Below are positions 28,201 through 39,890 of a stretch of DNA of 64,000 nucleotides, piece after piece (the stretch's first letter is position 1; each line of letters opens with the position of its first letter). This DNA comes from Hydrogenophaga pseudoflava. Its GTDB lineage: Bacteria; Pseudomonadota; Gammaproteobacteria; Burkholderiales; Burkholderiaceae_C. Made by a program: the position numbers and the translations under genes. Below the pieces are notes generated by a model. That model saw only the letters and a list, made by a program, of their open reading frames with translations. It was not told the origin of the DNA and searched no databases. The DNA lies in contig NZ_JAVHJP010000002.1 of assembly GCF_031020795.1 (NCBI RefSeq), positions 248,001 to 312,000 of the forward strand. The letters run 5' to 3'.

Positions 28201-28281
28201 GGCCGGTGGGCAATGGCACACGCCTCAGGACGGGGGCCGGTTTCTAAGCTTTCCCCATCCGCAACACACGAGGAAAGCGCC

Positions 28282-28995
28282 ATGGAAACCACCGCCCAAC
28301 GCCGCCTGATCGACCGCACCACCAACGACCTGTACTTCCACGCCGATCGCACGCAGCCGGTGCCGGACAGCCTGGGTCAGGACCTGCTGCTGCGGGTGCT
28401 GGACGAGGTCGACTACGGTCTGCTAGTGATCGATGCCCAGGGTCACATCCGACACGCCAACCACCTGGCCCGGCATGAGCTGTCGACCGGCCGGATGATC
28501 GTCAGCCATGCGCGCTCCCTGCTGGGCCGCAACACCGAACTCACCACCCAGATCCAGGGCGCCCTGGAGCACGCACTGCGCGGCCAGCGCCGCCTGCTGC
28601 AGCTTAAGCAGGGCGAGCACGAGCTGGCGCTGGCCTTTGTGCCGCTGAACCACCCGCTGGAGTTCGACGCACCCACCGTGCTGGTGCTGCTGTCCCGCAA
28701 GAACGCCTGCGACAACCTGGCGCTGCGCATGTTCGCCCGCTCGCAGAACCTGAGCCCCAGCGAAGAGGCGGTGCTGCTGGCCCTGTGCCGCGGCGCCTCG
28801 ATTCCCGAGATCGCCGCCGACCACAAGGTGGCCGAGTCCACCGTGCGCAGCCAGATCAAGGCGTTGCGCGAAAAAACCGGCTGCGGCAGCATCCGCGCCC
28901 TGATGCAGAAGGTGCACAGCCTGCCGCCCGTGGTGCCCGCCTTGCGGGTGATCTCCGCGATGCCGCACAATGCCATGGAGTTCGCCCAACCATGA
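28282..28995 (+). CDS. PAS-like sensor with LuxR-type helix-turn-helix
   Basis: The 237-residue regulator has an N-terminal PAS-like domain (about 35-140, LDEVDYGLLVIDAQGHIRHAN) and a C-terminal LuxR/GerE DNA-binding domain (about 160-220). The latter carries NLSPSEEAVLLALCRGASIPEIA and VAESTVRSQIKALREKTG. ATG 28282 follows GAGGAAAG. The Crp-family gene begins 6 bp after its stop, so the two regulators form an operon. The signal sensed is unknown. Confidence 0.87.
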   Translation: METTAQRRLIDRTTNDLYFHADRTQPVPDSLGQDLLLRVLDEVDYGLLVIDAQGHIRHANHLARHELSTGRMIVSHARSLLGRNTELTTQIQGALEHALRGQRRLLQLKQGEHELALAFVPLNHPLEFDAPTVLVLLSRKNACDNLALRMFARSQNLSPSEEAVLLALCRGASIPEIAADHKVAESTVRSQIKALREKTGCGSIRALMQKVHSLPPVVPALRVISAMPHNAMEFAQP

Positions 28996-29001
28996 GCCCG
29001 G

Positions 29002-29646
29002 ATGTCCGCCTTCCTTCCTGCCAGCACAGAGCCTTCTTCGCATATCCAGGCGCTGGCGGCACTGGGCGTGCAGCGACGCTACCGCAATGGCGCGCTGCTG
29101 ATCCAGGAAGGTGAGTCGGGCGACACGATCTACATCGTGCTGCAAGGCCGTCTGCGGGCCTTTCTCGGCGATGGCAACGGCAAGGAACTGACCCTGGGCT
29201 TCTACGGCCCGCTGGAGTATGTGGGCGAAATGTCGCTCGACGGCGGCCCGCGCTCGGCCAACGTGGAAGCGGTCGACGCCACGACCTGTTCCGTGATCTC
29301 CCGTGCCGTGCTGCTGAACTACATTGCCCAGCACCCCGAGTTCGCGCTCGAACTCATGGCCCGGCTGATCCGCCGGGCGCGGCTGGCGACGCAGAGCGCC
29401 GGCAACGTGGCCCTTATCGATGTCTATGGGCGCTTGGTGCGCCTGCTCAACCAGTTGGCCCGGGAGCCCGAAGCCTCTGGAGAGCGCAGGCTGGCGGAGC
29501 GCCTGACCCACCAGGAACTGGCGCAGCACCTGGCGTGTTCACGCGAGATGGTGTCCCGCCTGCTCAAGGACCTCGAAACCGGCGGCTACATTGCCGTGCG
29601 CGAGCGCTGGATCTGGCTGCTCAAGGCCTTGCCGGCGCGCTGGTAA
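29002..29646 (+). CDS. Crp-family regulator with a cyclic-nucleotide pocket
   Basis: The 214-residue protein has a cNMP-binding domain (about 12-125) and a winged-helix domain (about 150-210). The phosphate-binding cassette GEMSLDGGPRSANVEA keeps the Glu and Arg-Ser pair that contact cAMP in E. coli Crp. No Fnr-type cysteine cluster is present. The recognition helix is in LTHQELAQHLACSREMVSRLLKDLE. It is co-transcribed with the PAS/LuxR gene and converges, with a 9-bp gap, on an operon that encodes a class III cyclase. A cAMP link between the two is plausible but inferred. Confidence 0.88.
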   Translation: MSAFLPASTEPSSHIQALAALGVQRRYRNGALLIQEGESGDTIYIVLQGRLRAFLGDGNGKELTLGFYGPLEYVGEMSLDGGPRSANVEAVDATTCSVISRAVLLNYIAQHPEFALELMARLIRRARLATQSAGNVALIDVYGRLVRLLNQLAREPEASGERRLAERLTHQELAQHLACSREMVSRLLKDLETGGYIAVRERWIWLLKALPARW

Positions 29647-29655
29647 CAACCAGCA

Positions 29656-31644
29656 TCAGAGGCGTTTTCGGGCGATCTGAGGGGCCGCGCAGCTGGTGCC
29701 ATACATGCGAACCGATGAGCCGCTGCGGCTGCCCGCTCCCAGCACCCCCCACAGCGCTGTGCTCTCGTCGCTCACAGCCAGTTCATCCGGCACCTTCTTC
29801 ACCCCGTGGCGTTGCGGCAGGCGAGCGGCGTCCGGGTCCGGCAGCCTGGGGCTGTAGCGGGCGGCCGGGTCGAAGGCGCTCGAGGCGAAGCGGACGCCGC
29901 CGACCGAGACCGATCGCTGCCCCGTCCCGATGCTGTTGAACACCCCGCTGCGCCGTATCGGGGTCGGGTCGTCGGGGTGGTCGACGAAGCTGTCGATGTT
30001 GCCGCTGGTGTCGTAGAAGCGGTCCAGCATCGCAGACTGGCGGGCGCCGGTGTAGGTGCCCTGCGCCACGTCGTCGCGTTCCACGTAGGCGTCCAGCACC
30101 ACGGGGTTGAGCCCGCCGTTGTGCACCTTTACCTGCCACACGCCCGCCGGCGCCAGCCGGTCTTCGGGGTGGTGGGAGGCGGTGGGGCACAGGGCGAGCA
30201 GGGCGCAGGTGCCGTGCCGACCCAATGCGGTCTTTCTCGGGAACACCAGCGCCAGCTGGGGTGCGGTGGTCGAGGGCCAGCAACCTGCGTTGCCGACGGT
30301 CATGGGCTCCAGCACCTGCCCGCCGGGCAAAGTGACCTCGATGCCGATGTCCTGCAGCGCTTCTTCGGGCAGGTCGGGGTCGCCCAGCCACAACTCGAGA
30401 AAACTCTGGGTGCGGTCGTCGGGCTGGATGTGCCAGTGCAGCTCGGCCGGTTCACCGCCCGGCAGCAGGGTCTGGTTCACGTGGGTGCGGTCCTGGTAGC
30501 CGTTGCCCGCGGGAATGAAGACCTGCAGCCGCTCGGGCGTGCACAGCGCGATCAGATGGTCCATGGCCGCTTCCAGCACCGAGGTGCCGTCGTGTGGGCC
30601 GGCCAGCGTACCCCAGCTGATGTTCACCACGAGCTGCGCATCGGTGGTCACCCGGTTCAGGATGAACATGAGCGCGTCCAGCACGCTGACGTTCATCGCC
30701 CCACCCGAGGTGTCGATGACGTTGGACCAGTCCAGCTGCACCGCGATCAGGGGCGCGCGGCTGGCCTCGTCGTGGGCCGGTGTCATGTCCGGCGTGTGGG
30801 CCGCACTGCTCATGCGGGCGGTGGCCCGCCAGGGGCCGGCGGCCAGGCTCGCCACCACCGTCCCGTGGTTGACCGGGTGCTTCAGGTCCCAGCACTGCAG
30901 GTAGTCGTACAGATCGTCCTCGTCCACCGAGCCATTCAGCGTGAACCGGTCCATGGCGGCGCGGATGTCGGCCGCCGTGAGCTCATGTCCATAGCCCATG
31001 ACGGGCGGTGTCGGTCCGGCGCGTCGAGGGTCGAGGCGGCTGCGCAGGCGGCGACCCAGGCCCGGTCCGTGCGGACCGTCGAACTCATCCTGGCGCCAGA
31101 AGTGGCGCACCCTCGGTTGTCCGTCGGGTTTCAGGAAGGCCGCGTTGGCCATCGCCAGGCCGCCATCGATGATGCCGATCACCTTGCCGCCCACGGGCTC
31201 CGGACACGGCGGGACCGAGTCGCCGGGCAGTGCCGGGTCGGTCAGGCGGCCGGTGTGCTCCTCCACGGGCAGGCCCAGCTCATAACGCCGGACGATGCCG
31301 GCCAGGTCCGAGCGCTTGCGCATCGCCTTAAAAAAGCCCTTTCGTGCGCGCGCAGTGCAGAAGCGCAGCCCGGGCAGCAGCAGGTAGGCCTTGGGAACCT
31401 GCAGCCACTTCACGTCTGACGCCTGTAGCAGGTCTTGAATGCCGAAGCCGGGGTGGAGTTCAATGATGATCGGCAGCCAGCTCGGCCGAGCGGCCGGGCC
31501 TTCGCCCAGCCGGTAGCCTTCAAAGCGGTCGGCTTCGGCCCACGCGAGGTAGGGGTCGGCGCCCTCGATGCTGCCGGGTTGGGACCAGTCGGTGCCGGTG
31601 ACCTCACCTTTGGGCAGCGGCTGCCAGGGCTGGGCCGCGCTCAT
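29656..31644 (-). CDS. Subtilisin-fold (S8) serine protease, apparently cytoplasmic
   Basis: The 662-residue protein carries the full S8 triad in order: Asp160 in KVIGIIDGGLAMANAAF, His260 in HPVNHGTVVASLAAG, and Ser651 in YGTSCAAPQIA. The oxyanion Asn lies in QVFIPAGNGYQD. About 250 residues between the Asn and Ser regions form an extra, probably beta-rich, domain. The chain stops only 11 residues after the catalytic Ser, where most subtilases continue the helix. There is no signal peptide; the first 150 residues may be a prodomain or recognition domain. ATG 31644 overlaps the stop of the PAP2 gene (ATGA), so translation is coupled. The target is unknown. Confidence 0.88.
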   Translation of the reverse strand: MSAAQPWQPLPKGEVTGTDWSQPGSIEGADPYLAWAEADRFEGYRLGEGPAARPSWLPIIIELHPGFGIQDLLQASDVKWLQVPKAYLLLPGLRFCTARARKGFFKAMRKRSDLAGIVRRYELGLPVEEHTGRLTDPALPGDSVPPCPEPVGGKVIGIIDGGLAMANAAFLKPDGQPRVRHFWRQDEFDGPHGPGLGRRLRSRLDPRRAGPTPPVMGYGHELTAADIRAAMDRFTLNGSVDEDDLYDYLQCWDLKHPVNHGTVVASLAAGPWRATARMSSAAHTPDMTPAHDEASRAPLIAVQLDWSNVIDTSGGAMNVSVLDALMFILNRVTTDAQLVVNISWGTLAGPHDGTSVLEAAMDHLIALCTPERLQVFIPAGNGYQDRTHVNQTLLPGGEPAELHWHIQPDDRTQSFLELWLGDPDLPEEALQDIGIEVTLPGGQVLEPMTVGNAGCWPSTTAPQLALVFPRKTALGRHGTCALLALCPTASHHPEDRLAPAGVWQVKVHNGGLNPVVLDAYVERDDVAQGTYTGARQSAMLDRFYDTSGNIDSFVDHPDDPTPIRRSGVFNSIGTGQRSVSVGGVRFASSAFDPAARYSPRLPDPDAARLPQRHGVKKVPDELAVSDESTALWGVLGAGSRSGSSVRMYGTSCAAPQIARKRL

Positions 31645-32720
31645 GACCACTCCTTCAGGGCCTCCTGCCACAGCCAGCCCAGGGTGTCGGCCTGGGGCAG
31701 CGGAATCTGCGGTCCGCTCACGCTGTAGGCGCCCGCATCCATGGGGTCGCTGAGCTTGAAGTCCTTGGGCGCGCCATCCGCTTCGACGAACTGGTCGCTG
31801 TCGAAGCCCCGCAAGCGAACGCTCCCGCCGGTGGCACGGGTCACAAAGAACTCCCCGAGGCTGGTCCCCAGGAGACGGCCGACCGCACTGTCCACCGGGT
31901 AGTGCACCCCGGCCACTGTGCGGTTGACCGCGATGCGCGCCGCCAGGCGCTGCAGCTGCGTGCGGCTGTGCTGTCCATCGTTCTTGCCGGGCCGCGCCTG
32001 GTCCATGAACGCCTCCAGCAGCGTTGCGACGGTAAACGCTTCGGTCGCGTGGCCGCTGGGCCAGCTGCCGTGTCCCGGGGTGGGAATCATGGGCTGGATC
32101 TGTGGCGACAACTCCACTGGGCGCAGGATGGCAAAAATATGTTTGAGGCGCATCTCGACATGCACGGACAGACCCAGCGCGATCTCGATCAGCTGCAGTG
32201 TTTTCTTGTGGCGATGGGCAGTGAGGCCCAGCACGGCAGACCAGTAGCCGATCGGCGCCGTGAGCTGGTCCAGCACCTCGGCGGCCCGGTCCCCGCGCAG
32301 ATCCGCGTAGGCCGCGACCAGATCCAGCTGCAGCTTGAGCAGGTTCTTGGAAGGCCCCAACAGCTGAACCAGCGTCCGGTTCTTGATGGTGGCTGCACCG
32401 AGGTTGGCGAACTTCACATCGGCCTGTCTGGTACTCGCCGACGCGCTGACGGAAAGACCTTCGACCAGTTCCTCGAAGCAGGTGGTCATCCGCGGGCCGT
32501 CGGCCCAGAGGCGCAGGTTCTGGTCCTGATTGAACCCGGGTGTGGTGGGGTGGAGCACCGCGCCATCGAATGGGCCTGCAATCGCAGCTCGGCTGATGAT
32601 CAGGGCATCGGAGGAGACCATGCTGGCACCAGAGACGCCGGCACTGACACCCGCGCTCACGCCAGCGCTGACTCCTGCACTGACACCCGCACTCACACCT
32701 GCGCTGACTCCTGCACTCAT
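31641..32720 (-). CDS. PAP2/vanadium-haloperoxidase-fold protein with N-terminal SAGV repeats
   Basis: The 359-residue protein contains all three PAP2 active-site motifs: K193-x6-R200-P201 (KHIFAILRP), PSGH at 221-224, and R267-x5-H273-x3-D277 (NRTVAGVHYPVD). The fold is shared by acid phosphatases and vanadium haloperoxidases. No transmembrane segment is visible, which favours a soluble haloperoxidase-like enzyme over a lipid phosphatase. Residues 2-29 are seven perfect SAGV repeats. GAGGAG lies 6 bp before ATG 32720, so the repeats are translated. It starts 22 bp after the cyclase stop and overlaps the protease gene by 4 bp. Confidence 0.85.
   Translation of the reverse strand: MSAGVSAGVSAGVSAGVSAGVSAGVSAGVSGASMVSSDALIISRAAIAGPFDGAVLHPTTPGFNQDQNLRLWADGPRMTTCFEELVEGLSVSASASTRQADVKFANLGAATIKNRTLVQLLGPSKNLLKLQLDLVAAYADLRGDRAAEVLDQLTAPIGYWSAVLGLTAHRHKKTLQLIEIALGLSVHVEMRLKHIFAILRPVELSPQIQPMIPTPGHGSWPSGHATEAFTVATLLEAFMDQARPGKNDGQHSRTQLQRLAARIAVNRTVAGVHYPVDSAVGRLLGTSLGEFFVTRATGGSVRLRGFDSDQFVEADGAPKDFKLSDPMDAGAYSVSGPQIPLPQADTLGWLWQEALKEWS
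32634..32717 (-). repeat. 12-bp tandem repeat (seven units) encoding SAGV
   Basis: Seven consecutive 12-bp units with small third-base differences encode Ser-Ala-Gly-Val at the start of the PAP2-fold protein. Gain or loss of a unit keeps the reading frame, so the locus could vary in length between strains. Confidence 0.9.
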
Positions 32721-32742
32721 GGCTTCTCCTCGTTGGTTGGAT

Positions 32743-34575
32743 TCAGGTTCTGGGAAGGCCCAGCGACTCGAGCACCCGTGCGGTGCGCTGCCGCAGCGGA
32801 CTGAGGCTCCCGGAAGATAGGTACTGCGACAACGTCAGGTCGGGTTGCTGCGACCGAAGCAACGCAAACGTTTCTTTCGCTTCCGAAGTCTGTCCAGATT
32901 CGAACTGGGCAGTCAGCAAGATCCTCAGATTGGGCAGGTGATACCGGTTCTTGTTGAGCGAAGACCGGCTGTACTGGATGGCCTGGTCCAGGTCGCTCGT
33001 GGATAGGTGGCAACTGGCCAGCATCATTTCGAAGTAGTACTTCTGCGGATCCAGTGGCGACAGTCGCAGCGCGTTTTCCGCCTGTGTGACGGACTCCTTG
33101 GGCGTGCCCCACATGGTGGACCAGACGCTCCGGTAGAGCCAGGCCATCGGGTCGTTGGGATTCGCGTGGATGGCCTCGAGCAGCAGATGGTTCGATCCAT
33201 CGACGTCCTTGCCCAGATGGCACATGGCGTGCCCTTTGACGGCAAGCGCAAGGCCGCTGTCCGGCGTCATGTCCAGCGCCCGGTCTGCGATATCGATCGC
33301 GCGCTGGAATGACGCATGGGGGTCCGCAGCCATGCCCTGCACCACTTGCATGATGTGCCACTTGGCCAGCCACGCCCAGGGTGCGACCGAGCGCTTGTGG
33401 CGGTCCACCAGGGCCTCCAGCAGTTGCTGGCTGCGCTCGAGATCGCGGCGGGTGGAGCGGTGCATCAGGTTGATGGCGCCCAGCATCAGGGCGCTGCTGT
33501 CCAGCCGGGGCAGAGCTTGCGTGAGGGTGCGTTGCACTTCCGAGTGCAGCAGCTGGTCGGCACAGGTCGATGCCAGCGCGTTGATCAGCTCACTTTCCTG
33601 CTGCACCACGTCCATCACGTCACCAGTCAGCCGGTCGGCCCAGATCACCTCGTTGTGCCGGGTGTCGGTCAGCTGCGCGGTCACCATCACGCGCTCGCCC
33701 AGGGACACGTAGCTGCCCGACAGCACGAAGTGGGCGTCCAGCTGCTGGCTTGCGGTCTGGTTGGCGTCGTCCCGGCCTCTGAGCACGGCGGTTGAGAGCC
33801 TCGAGATGACGCGCAAGTGCTGGCTGCGGGAAAGCTGGACGATGACGCCTTCTGCCAGCAGGTCGCCGATCACGAAGTGCTCGGGCGCATGGCTGCGCGA
33901 GACGAAAGGCAACACCGCAATGGTGGCGCGGAAGTCGTCCGGTGTGGCGGCTGGTGTGGGTGGTTTGAGGATGACGCCTGTTGCCGAGGGGGGGGTGAGC
34001 GTCCAAGTCCGCACGGGCTCGGGCCAGTGCTTGAGGTAGCACTCGCCCATGTCCTCCATGTCGCCGTCGACACCGTCCACCAAGGCTTCGTGCACGTTGG
34101 CCGTGATGACCGTTTCGCCAGGGCCTGCGAGCCCCGCCACACGGGCCGCCAGATTGACACCGTGCCCAAACACGTCGTGGTCATCGATGTACAGGTGGGT
34201 GGCGTTCAGCCCCGCGCGCAGCCAGAACTTGTTGTCGTCGTCGCGCCGGCGGTTAGCGTCGTCGAAATAGCGGTGCAGCCGCAGGGTGGCCTTGACGGCC
34301 TGGGATGGTTCGTCGAACTCCACCAGGATGCCATCGCCCAGGCTCTTGACCAGGCGGCCACCGTGTCTGGGCAGGACGTCTTCGCGGGCGTGCTGGAGGA
34401 AGCCGTGCCAGTGGTGAACCACGGACGCTTCGTTGTTTGCCATCAGCCTCACGGATTCCACCAGGTCCATCACCAGCACCACCTTGTTCTGCATGAGCGG
34501 CAGAGGCGGCACCTCAGGGGATGGAGCCGGTTCGCCGGGAGAGCCCATGGTGCTGGGGGGCGGCAGGCTTGTCAT
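32743..34575 (-). CDS. Class III nucleotidyl cyclase with TolB-like and TPR regions
   Basis: The 610-residue protein starts with a class III cyclase homology domain (about 30-195). The metal-binding aspartates are Asp37 (VLVMDLVES) and Asp81 (KSLGDGILVEF). Lys77 fits the adenine-specifying position, and Asn141 and Arg145 (GVNLAARV) provide transition-state contacts. A TolB/FlgO-like domain follows (about 215-340, IAVLPFVSRS), then TPR-type helical repeats (about 360-600). There is no signal peptide or membrane segment. It heads the operon with the PAP2-fold and subtilase genes. The start at 34575 has GAGG only one base away, so the true start could differ; later ATGs have no better site. cAMP is the likely product. 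Confidence 0.88.
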   Translation of the reverse strand: MTSLPPPSTMGSPGEPAPSPEVPPLPLMQNKVVLVMDLVESVRLMANNEASVVHHWHGFLQHAREDVLPRHGGRLVKSLGDGILVEFDEPSQAVKATLRLHRYFDDANRRRDDDNKFWLRAGLNATHLYIDDHDVFGHGVNLAARVAGLAGPGETVITANVHEALVDGVDGDMEDMGECYLKHWPEPVRTWTLTPPSATGVILKPPTPAATPDDFRATIAVLPFVSRSHAPEHFVIGDLLAEGVIVQLSRSQHLRVISRLSTAVLRGRDDANQTASQQLDAHFVLSGSYVSLGERVMVTAQLTDTRHNEVIWADRLTGDVMDVVQQESELINALASTCADQLLHSEVQRTLTQALPRLDSSALMLGAINLMHRSTRRDLERSQQLLEALVDRHKRSVAPWAWLAKWHIMQVVQGMAADPHASFQRAIDIADRALDMTPDSGLALAVKGHAMCHLGKDVDGSNHLLLEAIHANPNDPMAWLYRSVWSTMWGTPKESVTQAENALRLSPLDPQKYYFEMMLASCHLSTSDLDQAIQYSRSSLNKNRYHLPNLRILLTAQFESGQTSEAKETFALLRSQQPDLTLSQYLSSGSLSPLRQRTARVLESLGLPRT

Positions 34576-34711: not shown

Positions 34712-35167
34712 TCACTTCAGGTGTTCGTTGATCATCTTGGTCATCTCGAACATCGAGGCCTGGGCCTTCTTGAAGATTTCCTTCAGCTTGGCGTCGGCGT
34801 TGATCATGCGCTTGTTGACAGCGTCCTGCAGCTTGTTCTTCTTGATGTATTCCCAGACCTTCTTGGTCACTTCCGTGCGGGGCAGCGGGCTGTTGCCAAC
34901 GATGGCGGCCAGAGCGGCGCTGGGGGTCATGGCCTTCATGAAGGCGGCGTTGGGGGTGCGCTTCTTGGCGGGTGCAGCCTTCTTGGCAGGAGCGGCGGCC
35001 TTCTTGGCGGGTGCAGCTTTCTTCGCCGGAGCAGCGGCCTTCTTGGCCGGTGCAGCCTTCTTGGCCGGAGCGGCGGCCTTCTTGGCGGGTGCCGCCTTCT
35101 TTGCCGGAGCGGCGGCCTTCTTGGCCGGGGCGGCCTTCTTCGCAGGAGCTTTCTTTGCAGTTGCCAT
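34712..35167 (-). CDS. SWIB-domain protein with a histone-H1-like Lys/Ala/Pro tail
   Basis: The 151-residue protein has an N-terminal low-complexity tail (residues 2-70) made of PAKKAA units, resembling eukaryotic histone H1 tails. A compact SWIB/MDM2-type domain follows (about 75-150, with SPLPRTEVTKKVWEYIKKNKLQ and MINADAKLKEIF). Proteins of this architecture occur in several betaproteobacteria and chlamydiae and are thought to bind DNA as nucleoid proteins. AAGGA precedes the ATG. It has its own terminator and is divergent from the rraA-like gene. Confidence 0.88.
   Translation of the reverse strand: MATAKKAPAKKAAPAKKAAAPAKKAAPAKKAAAPAKKAAPAKKAAAPAKKAAPAKKAAAPAKKAAPAKKRTPNAAFMKAMTPSAALAAIVGNSPLPRTEVTKKVWEYIKKNKLQDAVNKRMINADAKLKEIFKKAQASMFEMTKMINEHLK
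34966..35161 (-). repeat. Tandem 21-bp-type repeats encoding PAKKAA units
   Basis: Near-identical units encoding Ala-Pro-Ala-Lys-Lys-Ala-Ala are repeated about ten times in the tail of the SWIB protein. Unit changes would alter tail length and charge without breaking the frame. Confidence 0.8.
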
Positions 35168-38063: not shown

Positions 38064-39890
38064 ATGTCTTTCCGTTCTGCTCCGGTGCGCCTGGCCGCGC
38101 TGCCACTGGCTTGCGCCATCGCGTTTCCCGCCCTTGCCCAGTCCACCCTGCCTATCGTGGTCGTGTCGGCGACACGGTCCGAGCTGCCCGTCACCGATGT
38201 GGTGGCGGATGTGACCCTGGTCGACCGCAACGCCATCGACCGTCTGGGCGCTGCCTCGGTCTCCGACGTGCTGGAGCGCCTGCCGGGCGTGACCGTCAAC
38301 CGCAATGGCGGGCCCGCGTCTACCACCAACGTCTACCTGCGGGGCGCGGAAGGCCGCTTCACCGCGGTGTTCATCGATGGCGTGCGCATCGATTCCCAGT
38401 CCACCGGCGGCGCCACCTGGAACGCAATTCCCTTGTCCCAGGTGGAGCGCATCGAAGTGCTGCGCGGGCCGGCGGCGGCGGTGTACGGCTCGGACGCGAT
38501 GGCCGGCGTGGTCCAGATCTTCACGCGCCAGGGTGAGAAAGGCTTCTTCCCGTCGCTGCGCCTGGGCGTGGGGTCGAACAGCACCTACGAAGCGGGGGCT
38601 GCCCTGCGCGGCGGCGACGGGGTGGTCGACTACGCCTTCGGTCTGGGCACCGAGCGCAGCGACGGCTTCAACGCCAAACCCTCTGGCAACCCGGATCGAG
38701 ACGGCTACCGCAACGAGTCGTTCTCGGGCCGTTTCGGATGGAAACTCTCCGAGGGGCAGAAGCTGGAGGCCACGCTGCTCGACAGCCGCCAGAAGGCGGG
38801 CTACGACGGCTACATGCCGGGGCAGGACGACCAGTCCAAGCACCACCTGCAGACCGTGGGACTGAACTGGAACAGCCGCTGGAGTGAAGCCTGGAGCACC
38901 CGCGTGGGCGTCAGCCGCGGAGCCGATCGGTACGAAACCACGCCCTCCGTCTACCTGACGGACACCTCGGTGGACAGCTGGCTGCTGCGCAACGAGTTGC
39001 GCGTGGGGCCGGGTCGGCTCACGGTGGACCTGGAGCGCCGTGAGGACCGGCTGGAGAACGCCAGCACCACGCCCGAAAAGACAGACCGGCACCAGGACGC
39101 CCTGGCACTGGGCTATGGTCTGCGTGCCGGCGACCACACGCTGCAGCTCAATGCCCGACGCGACGACGACAGCGAGTTCGGCGCGCACACCACCGGCTCG
39201 CTTGCCTACGGCTATGCGCTGTCCAGGACGCTCCAGCTCACGGGCTCGGTGGGCACGGCCTTCCGCGCCCCCACGCTGTTCCAGCGCTTCAGCATCTACG
39301 GCACGCCCGACCTCAAGGCGGAAACCGCGCGCAACATGGAAGCGGGTGTGCGCTGGCAGGAGGCGGCCAATCGCGCTTCCGTGGTGGTCTACCGCAACCG
39401 CGTCAAGGACCTGATCGACTATCTGGCCGGCCCTGGCAGCTGCGTCAACGGGGTGGGCGATTTCGCCGGCTGCTACGGCAACACCGGCCGAGCCACTTAC
39501 ACCGGTGTGACGCTGGCCGGAGGGACGACGCTCGGTGAGGTGGCGCTGGGCGCTTCGCTGGACCTGATGCGTCCGAAGAACGCCGAGACCGGCCAACTGC
39601 TGGCGCGCCGTGCCAAAACCCAGGCCACGCTGACCGCGGACACGCCCGTGGGCGCCTGGCGCCTGGGCGCCGAAGTGCAGCACCTGGGCAAGCGCTACGA
39701 CGACGAAGCCAACACGAAACCGCTGCCCGCCCACACCCTGTTGCATCTCACGGCCAGCACCGACATCGCCCGCGACTGGCGGCTGCTTGCGCGCGTGGAC
39801 AACGCCACCGACAAGGATTACGAGTCGGTGCTGGGCTACGCCACGGCTGGCCGCGGCTTCTACCTGGGCCTGAGCTGGTCGCCCCGCTGA
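38064..39890 (+). CDS. btuB: TonB-dependent vitamin B12 receptor BtuB
   Basis: BtuB is the outer-membrane receptor that takes up cobalamins using TonB energy. The 608-residue protein has a signal peptide (about 1-26, ending FPALAQ) and a TonB-box-like LPIVVVSATRS. The plug domain (about 45-150) has SVSDVLERLPGVTVNRNGG and RIEVLRGPAAAVYGSDAMAGVVQIFT. A 22-strand beta barrel ends in the aromatic FYLGLSWSPR. It directly follows the cobalamin riboswitch and leads the operon; cobB starts 8 bp later. Confidence 0.95.
   Translation: MSFRSAPVRLAALPLACAIAFPALAQSTLPIVVVSATRSELPVTDVVADVTLVDRNAIDRLGAASVSDVLERLPGVTVNRNGGPASTTNVYLRGAEGRFTAVFIDGVRIDSQSTGGATWNAIPLSQVERIEVLRGPAAAVYGSDAMAGVVQIFTRQGEKGFFPSLRLGVGSNSTYEAGAALRGGDGVVDYAFGLGTERSDGFNAKPSGNPDRDGYRNESFSGRFGWKLSEGQKLEATLLDSRQKAGYDGYMPGQDDQSKHHLQTVGLNWNSRWSEAWSTRVGVSRGADRYETTPSVYLTDTSVDSWLLRNELRVGPGRLTVDLERREDRLENASTTPEKTDRHQDALALGYGLRAGDHTLQLNARRDDDSEFGAHTTGSLAYGYALSRTLQLTGSVGTAFRAPTLFQRFSIYGTPDLKAETARNMEAGVRWQEAANRASVVVYRNRVKDLIDYLAGPGSCVNGVGDFAGCYGNTGRATYTGVTLAGGTTLGEVALGASLDLMRPKNAETGQLLARRAKTQATLTADTPVGAWRLGAEVQHLGKRYDDEANTKPLPAHTLLHLTASTDIARDWRLLARVDNATDKDYESVLGYATAGRGFYLGLSWSPR

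Follow-up and report, generated by a model that had tools for sequence, protein, structure and literature searches.

Pycsar systems pair a class III-fold cyclase (PycC) with a PycTIR or PycTM effector. In eukaryotes, a TPR superhelix similar in shape to the one considered here encloses the N-terminus of its partner; that ligand is non-repetitive and no enzyme activities are involved. In the TPR clamps of HOP, as described in the pertinent passages of PMC1261162, positions 2, 5, 6, 9, 12 and 13 contact the peptides and the ligands are the fixed tails of Hsp70 and Hsp90. Designed repeat proteins, according to parts of PMC10115654, bind tandem tripeptides by superhelical matching. Here we report on a three-gene module of Hydrogenophaga pseudoflava, located in a 64,000-nucleotide stretch (assembly GCF_031020795.1, contig NZ_JAVHJP010000002.1, positions 248,001 to 312,000; hereafter the window, whose first letter is position 1). 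It encodes a class III adenylate-type cyclase ending in a TPR superhelix, a PAP2-superfamily enzyme with an exact N-terminal repeat array, and a leaderless subtilase (S8). Like the designed binders, its groove would read exact short repeats one-to-one; unlike them, the putative partners are a natural pair with adjacent genes, and the 60 unit types change with the groove. The concave positions that bind ligand in HOP belong to the face that covaries here, but the putative ligand is a hypervariable N-terminal array instead of a fixed tail. The module shares with Pycsar a class III-fold cyclase, which gave a weak PycC match (E 5e-6). Unlike Pycsar, the trio has no TIR or membrane effector, carries TPR and FlgO-like parts and is mostly a core locus in Hydrogenophaga. 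As its partners are PAP2 and S8 proteins, neither with a PADLOC match, we did not assign it to Pycsar.

The central observation is that the identity of the repeat unit changes together with the terminal TPRs of the cyclase, above all with their groove face, and far more than with the cyclase domain, the PAP2 body or the subtilase. All three genes lie on the minus strand: cyclase 34575-32743 (610 amino acids), PAP2 32720-31641 (359 amino acids) and subtilase 31644-29656 (662 amino acids counted from the ATG, a GTG at 31671 being an alternative upstream start). The 22-bp gap between cyclase and PAP2, the ATGA overlap between PAP2 and subtilase and the intact catalytic motifs, all described in a sequence-only reading of this DNA, were confirmed, and the motifs are conserved across relatives. 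That reading had also found no signal peptide in the three proteins; inspection by eye, without a predictor, likewise revealed none. Pfam profiles TPR_19, FlgO and PAP2 scored above their cut-offs, while Guanylate_cyc (20.7 versus 21.9) and Peptidase_S8 (18.4 versus 21.8) remained slightly below.

For comparison we used 178 loci, namely the window, L021-L120 and L147-L223, with some genomes represented twice. They were fetched by similarity to PAP2 or to the subtilase alone, without regard to the other genes. Cyclase, PAP2 and subtilase follow each other in this order on one strand in 165 of the 178, mainly in Beta- and Alphaproteobacteria. Because the similarity of a single protein had been used for fetching and yet 165 loci hold all three, the order is more than chance. 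Among the remaining 13 loci, eight have no same-strand cyclase (six are truncated by a contig end, and in L095 and L119 the cyclase lies on the opposite strand) and five have no subtilase match. The proposal that the three genes form one unit thus stands, and the finding that had been named as speaking against it, a trio confined to this genome, was not obtained. The trio is a real, widespread module, undescribed in the open PMC literature as far as searched. In agreement with the earlier statement that no system of such composition has been described, none was found there, and the trio does not appear in the term-matched passages of PMC7159879, PMC8195603 and PMC13092281. From the 178 loci, 156 with a repeat unit and both partners were retained, 143 of these were complete, and removal of those more than 97% identical left 123 systems. 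L068, whose unit was read beside a masked stretch and is doubtful, is counted among the 123 systems and 60 units and was left out of the array-unit statistics and the random-column-set test. Eight duplicate loci were omitted from motif-conservation and array comparisons, and eleven incomplete or odd ones from the covariation analysis of 75 systems.

The cyclase combines two metal-binding Asp residues and the transition-state Asn and Arg in a cyclase fold, as expected of a class III nucleotidyl cyclase. Its catalytic domain spans residues about 27-197 (33985..34497), and D37, D81, N141 and R145 are all kept in 116 of the 123 systems. K77 (104/123) and D134 (110/123), which we take to be adenine-type residues, are less strictly conserved. 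In seven cyclases (L021, L023, L161, L166, L187, L188, L189) at least one catalytic residue is changed; tail and TPRs are retained. A FlgO-like middle domain precedes the C-terminal superhelix. The TPR scaffold noted by the sequence-only reading was recovered by TPR_19 (32.9 bits, cut-off 25) and as helices 358-604 of a structure model with a mean predicted local distance difference test (pLDDT) score of 91.2. The PAP2 protein, nearest in fold to class A acid phosphatases, contains the complete superfamily signature at 31890..32144, i.e. K-x6-RP (K193-x6-R200P), PSGH (221-224) and R-x5-H-x3-D (R267-x5-H273-x3-D277). K193, R200, G223, H224, R267 and H273 are invariant in the 123 systems, and S222 occurs in 114. 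In the subtilase, D160 (120/123), H260 and N381 (both 123/123) are joined by S651 in all 120 systems whose sequence extends that far. Its nearest solved relatives by sequence are the Csp germination proteases (9sj6, E 1e-4). A broken C-terminus (29656-29700) was considered and rejected, as the proteins of same-genus relatives have their GTS motif followed by a stop in the same position. Hydrogenophaga subtilases end roughly ten residues past the catalytic serine, and the relatives in L021 and L022 are longer. The short C-terminus is a lineage trait and not a frameshift.

In the window, PAP2 residues 2-29 (32634..32717) consist of seven exact SAGV units encoded by six different DNA versions. 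The sequence-only reading had not noticed this array. A tandem array was called at the PAP2 N-terminus in 162 of the 178 loci. The 16 uncalled cases comprise three arrays visible by eye, three cut by contig ends, one unreadable by the caller, five irregular and four without a repeat. Sixty unit types occur among the 123 systems. Besides SAGV we found WEG, QGY, QGS, GGV, LTG, SGGI, SGGY, SSGM, AGM, TGT, QGD, TSM, SHS and GGA as well as the rare longer units ASLWPR, GGIGRT and AGIGGHS. Units measure three residues in 76 systems, four in 43, six in three and seven in one. Glycine, present in the units of 119/123 systems, is usual and not required. Median array length is 30 residues for three-residue units, 28 for four-residue units and 18-21 in the four longer-unit systems. 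Repetition is almost perfect: only 11 of 1051 units in 119 non-redundant arrays are imperfect (differing units at the extreme ends uncounted), and 110 of these arrays show no amino-acid difference between units. At the DNA level, the median synonymous difference per site (pS) between units is 0.73, near that of random codons, and neighbouring units are less alike than units farther apart (2.16 versus 2.00 differing nt; 81/115 arrays, p 1.2e-5). In these 115 systems it looks as if codons were picked against slippage. Recent slippage as source of the exact repeats was therefore rejected, and the exact protein repeat must be held by selection. The repetition stays exact, and the unit itself is free to change. 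In a 123-tip tree calculated from the subtilase, PAP2 from residue 161 and the cyclase up to residue 400, the unit changes about 82 times (shuffled 101) and the repeat length about 7 times (shuffled 39). In the PAP2 structure model, residues 1-29 have pLDDT values below 50 and the remainder is confident; the tail is disordered according to this model.

Signalling of the BASS type relies on the same short motif on an effector and on a receptor encoded elsewhere. In the own genome (SAGVSAGV) and in 4/4 AGY genomes, the exact array pattern did not occur outside the pap gene; this search for repeat sharing with another protein covered exact two- or three-unit patterns in five genomes, imperfect copies not being sought. 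With the pattern confined to the pap gene in the genomes checked, amyloid signalling by a shared motif was dismissed. Genomes with two or three modules carry different units: SGGA and AGGS in L167/L176 (G746), SHS and TSA in L170/L181 (G550), and LTG, SGI and GGL in L044/L048/L060 of the metagenome-assembled genome (MAG) ND3_Bin_7, which may mix genomes.

Covariation between unit and protein regions was determined with control for overall trio distance and with units permuted within clusters. In 75 systems, only cyclase residues 506-600 clearly covaried with the unit (r 0.65 and 0.41, each with p ≤ 0.0005), and cyclase 426-505 and PAP2 150-230 reached borderline significance (p about 0.04) under one of the two settings. 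In 123 systems, z values of 11.0 and 7.3 were obtained for cyclase 556-605 and 506-555 (7.1 and 6.0 with a wider pair cut-off) and of about 2-3.5 for the preceding TPR region 341-505. No unit covariation was detected by this permutation for the cyclase catalytic domain, the subtilase (at most 0.4) or PAP2 36-115, the other flank of the array (-0.3 to -2.0). Consistently, 31 of the top 40 covarying columns (of 1371) fall into cyclase 506-609. The segment concerned comprises the last two TPRs and the capping helix (residues 512-604; 32764..33042). Several leading columns are spaced by about 34 residues, the TPR spacing (521/555/588, 524/558/591, 528/562/596); columns 552, 604 and 609 lie outside this series. 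In the model, the top columns within 506-609 map to the A helices of the TPRs (512-525 and 547-559), to the beginning of the helices that follow and to the capping helix. In TPR5-6, positions equivalent to the HOP contacts reached a mean z of 3.82 versus 1.67 elsewhere (p 0.005; p 0.012 and 0.045 for two other choices).

The association extends to distantly related systems. After removal of the GGA systems (n 104), the nearest neighbour chosen by ten groove positions had the same repeat length in 84% of distant pairs (random 41%) and a unit similarity of 0.48 (random 0.18), compared with 44% and 0.24 for PAP2 36-115. None of 200 entropy-matched ten-column sets taken from cyclase 31-340, from TPR5-6 positions outside the groove, from PAP2 or from the subtilase equalled the groove set. 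P548, E559 and R595 are present in all 43 four-residue systems and in only 7, 15 and 9 of the 76 three-residue systems, in which S548 (63/76) and G595 (44/76) prevail. In Hydrogenophaga, SGG-I/L/M/T arrays pair with T or A at 521 and A524, and SGG-A/V/Y arrays with N521 and L524. T594, G595 and W598 accompany all 22 GGA and GAA arrays and 3/5 GGV arrays across Alpha- and Betaproteobacteria, and AGY and GGY arrays pair with Y594 and L598 in 5/6 cases, the exception being L109 (AGY). The four TGT systems have H517, L521, L524, Q594 and L598 in common. R551 is found in all 119 (of 123) systems with three- or four-residue units; eight systems with another residue at this position have arrays that are longer, irregular or missing, and several other irregular or array-less ones retain R551.

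The covariation gives good support to the view that the PAP2 repeat tail probably docks as a ligand in the TPR groove of the cyclase, whose gene lies immediately upstream. On balance we also favour the broader proposal of a natural code in which repeat reads repeat: the cyclase groove would recognize a hypervariable tail built from exact tri- or tetrapeptide repeats on the partner enzyme, in about 60 lock-and-key versions across Proteobacteria, each circuit being insulated from the others. The disordered tail, of about 28-30 residues with three- and four-residue units alike, would run along the TPR superhelix with one unit per turn, and any unit sequence would work provided that tail and groove match. 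Docking would tie the phosphatase-like enzyme to the adenylate-type cyclase and avoid cross-talk with other copies. More tentatively, the cyclase might produce cAMP that is read by a neighbouring Crp/Fnr protein, the PAP2 enzyme might tune the cyclase, e.g. through removal of pyrophosphate or of a phosphorylated ligand, and proteolysis by the subtilase, possibly of the exposed tail, might reset the complex; the functions given here to phosphatase and protease are guesses. If the proposal holds, nature already uses a principle built by protein designers, in which a repeat protein reads a repeated peptide unit by unit. The 123 systems would then be candidate cognate pairs, from which the code could be deciphered and checked by means of synthetic peptides, and which could teach how ligands are selected by repeat proteins. 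A new signalling circuit would also be at hand, in which cyclase, phosphatase-like enzyme and cytoplasmic protease are joined. Conservation of exact repetition with a free choice of the repeated word is an unusual mode of evolution.

Several observations weigh against docking of the tail in the groove. The TPR register was set after the column list was known, and shifts of +3 or +7 gave equal or slightly higher means; the helix face is therefore supported and the exact positions are not. Between distant systems all regions predict repeat length above random: the cyclase domain reached 72% same length and a unit similarity of 0.35, and subtilase parts 50-68% (68% for 401-660) and 0.22-0.39. TPR3-4 (441-505) matched the groove set (90%, 0.51), and 9/200 random sets from cyclase 341-505 attained its unit similarity, though 0/200 its length prediction. 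Residues 548, 559 and 595 are unchanged in the two closest pairs of differing repeat length, and E559 is retained in Hydrogenophaga three-residue systems. The TPR part is retained in L173, L175, L195 and L196 despite the missing repeat, and R551 in three of these. When units were permuted across all tips, covariation also appeared for PAP2 116-225 (z 8.9 with near and 4.5 with far pairs), PAP2 36-75 (3.9 and 3.7) and cyclase 341-505 (2.6-9.6); in the far-pair version of this test, 116/144 same-unit pairs are GGA. Finally, cyclase 506-605 shows an association with the unit also at synonymous sites (r 0.25-0.33; amino acids 0.59-0.66).

The last point bears on an alternative in which the 3′ end of the cyclase gene and the array are swapped together by homologous recombination as a linked cassette and covary without the two protein parts touching. 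Cyclase stop and first array unit are separated by a median of 44.5 nt, the cyclase-side signal drops with distance from the array, and synonymous association extends over cyclase 406-605 (r 0.22-0.33), being similar to the amino-acid association in 406-505. Moreover, within the Hydrogenophaga part of the tree, scattered branches share near-identical TPR strings that come with the same unit. Since synonymous sites associate too, part of the unit signal is co-inheritance of cyclase end and array. Exchange of such a cassette is part of the history, and exchange itself suits a matched pair. However, the amino-acid signal in cyclase 506-605 is about double the synonymous one. Linkage alone does not readily explain the silent other flank of the array (PAP2 36-115, under within-cluster permutation), the preference for one helix face and the predictions that persist between distant systems, and we consider it unlikely as the sole cause.

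Self-assembly of the tail is still less probable. Here identical units would allow PAP2 tails to stack in any register into a polymer, with lineages diverging against cross-seeding. Exact repetition, free unit choice, the disordered tail and the different units on modules within one genome (G746, G550, MAG ND3_Bin_7) would all agree with such a polymer, but covariation with the cyclase TPRs is not predicted, and units ranging from WEG and QGD to GGA and TSM have no common stacking chemistry. A multi-copy precursor cut by the subtilase into many copies of a short peptide signal, in the way kexin processes yeast pheromone precursors into peptide copies, is suggested by the S8 protease encoded next door and by the identical units, but it is highly improbable, as no subtilase region covaries with the unit under within-cluster permutation and none of the 60 unit types contains lysine and only three, of GGIGR type, arginine, leaving no dibasic spacer.

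In 100 relatives, a subtilase match was obtained for 47, comprising 46 of 60 same-genus genomes (own included; G049 with a weak match only) and one of the 40 other genomes. The subtilase-positive relatives supplied 20 loci of 8-20 kb, 19 of them from the same genus. In 17 of these 19 the trio occupies the core site of the window, flanked by acetolactate-synthase-like, LuxR and Crp genes on one side and a histone-H1-like/RraA-like/TauE-like block on the other. Both flanks agree in 15 of them; L039 stops short of the cyclase, and in L040 the match is confined to the RraA/TauE side. L022 and L023 (same genus) and L021 (another family) carry divergent trios with 27-37% identity at other sites. In L021 (11005-12117) and L022 (7544-8596) a different LuxR-family gene directly follows the subtilase, with an ATGA overlap in L022; it is possibly a fourth gene of the divergent trios. 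Beyond the three nearest genomes, same-genus identity is about 52-64% for the trio, 80-89% for the acetolactate-synthase-like gene and 81-87% for the TauE-like gene. Scanning of GTDB species genomes with the PAP2 alignment yielded 554 confirmed stretches. The best 80, which were taken, include Hydrogenophaga, Polaromonas, Aquabacterium, Caenimonas, Variovorax, Caballeronia, Paraburkholderia, Bradyrhizobium, Methylobacterium, Microvirga, Roseibium, Nisaea and other genera. In genome samples, the PAP2 profile was found in 8/399 genomes of the order (5/158 genera) and 55/399 genomes of the family (31/141 genera).

A role in defence, on which the sequence-only reading had speculated, did not gain support. 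In the same-genus loci the trio mostly occupies a core site, and no PADLOC family matched more than two of 148 neighbour genes, a count for which no background set was run; a defence island was likewise not supported on these grounds. The 148 genes are those within limits among 188 picked ones and derive from 26 of 32 chosen loci. Their PADLOC matches included one PycC (E 6e-27) and two PycTIR. The commonest neighbour family was cNMP-binding (6/148 genes). In the window, a Crp/Fnr-family regulator (29002..29646, plus strand) is convergent with the subtilase and may be a reader of the cyclase product. Homologues occur in 54 of 100 long loci, which include eight duplicates, and are convergent and directly downstream in 47. 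The adjoining LuxR-family (GerE) regulator (28213..28995, plus strand), a possible associate with homologues in 48/100 long loci, is also fast-changing among same-genus loci. Just upstream of the module, 34712-35167 encodes a histone-H1-like protein with AAPAKKA-type repeats whose position is kept across same-genus loci. Farther away, the gene at 38064-39890 is 92% identical in the nearest genome and 25-33% identical in 11 of the 16 same-genus loci covering the site, as if it had been repeatedly replaced.

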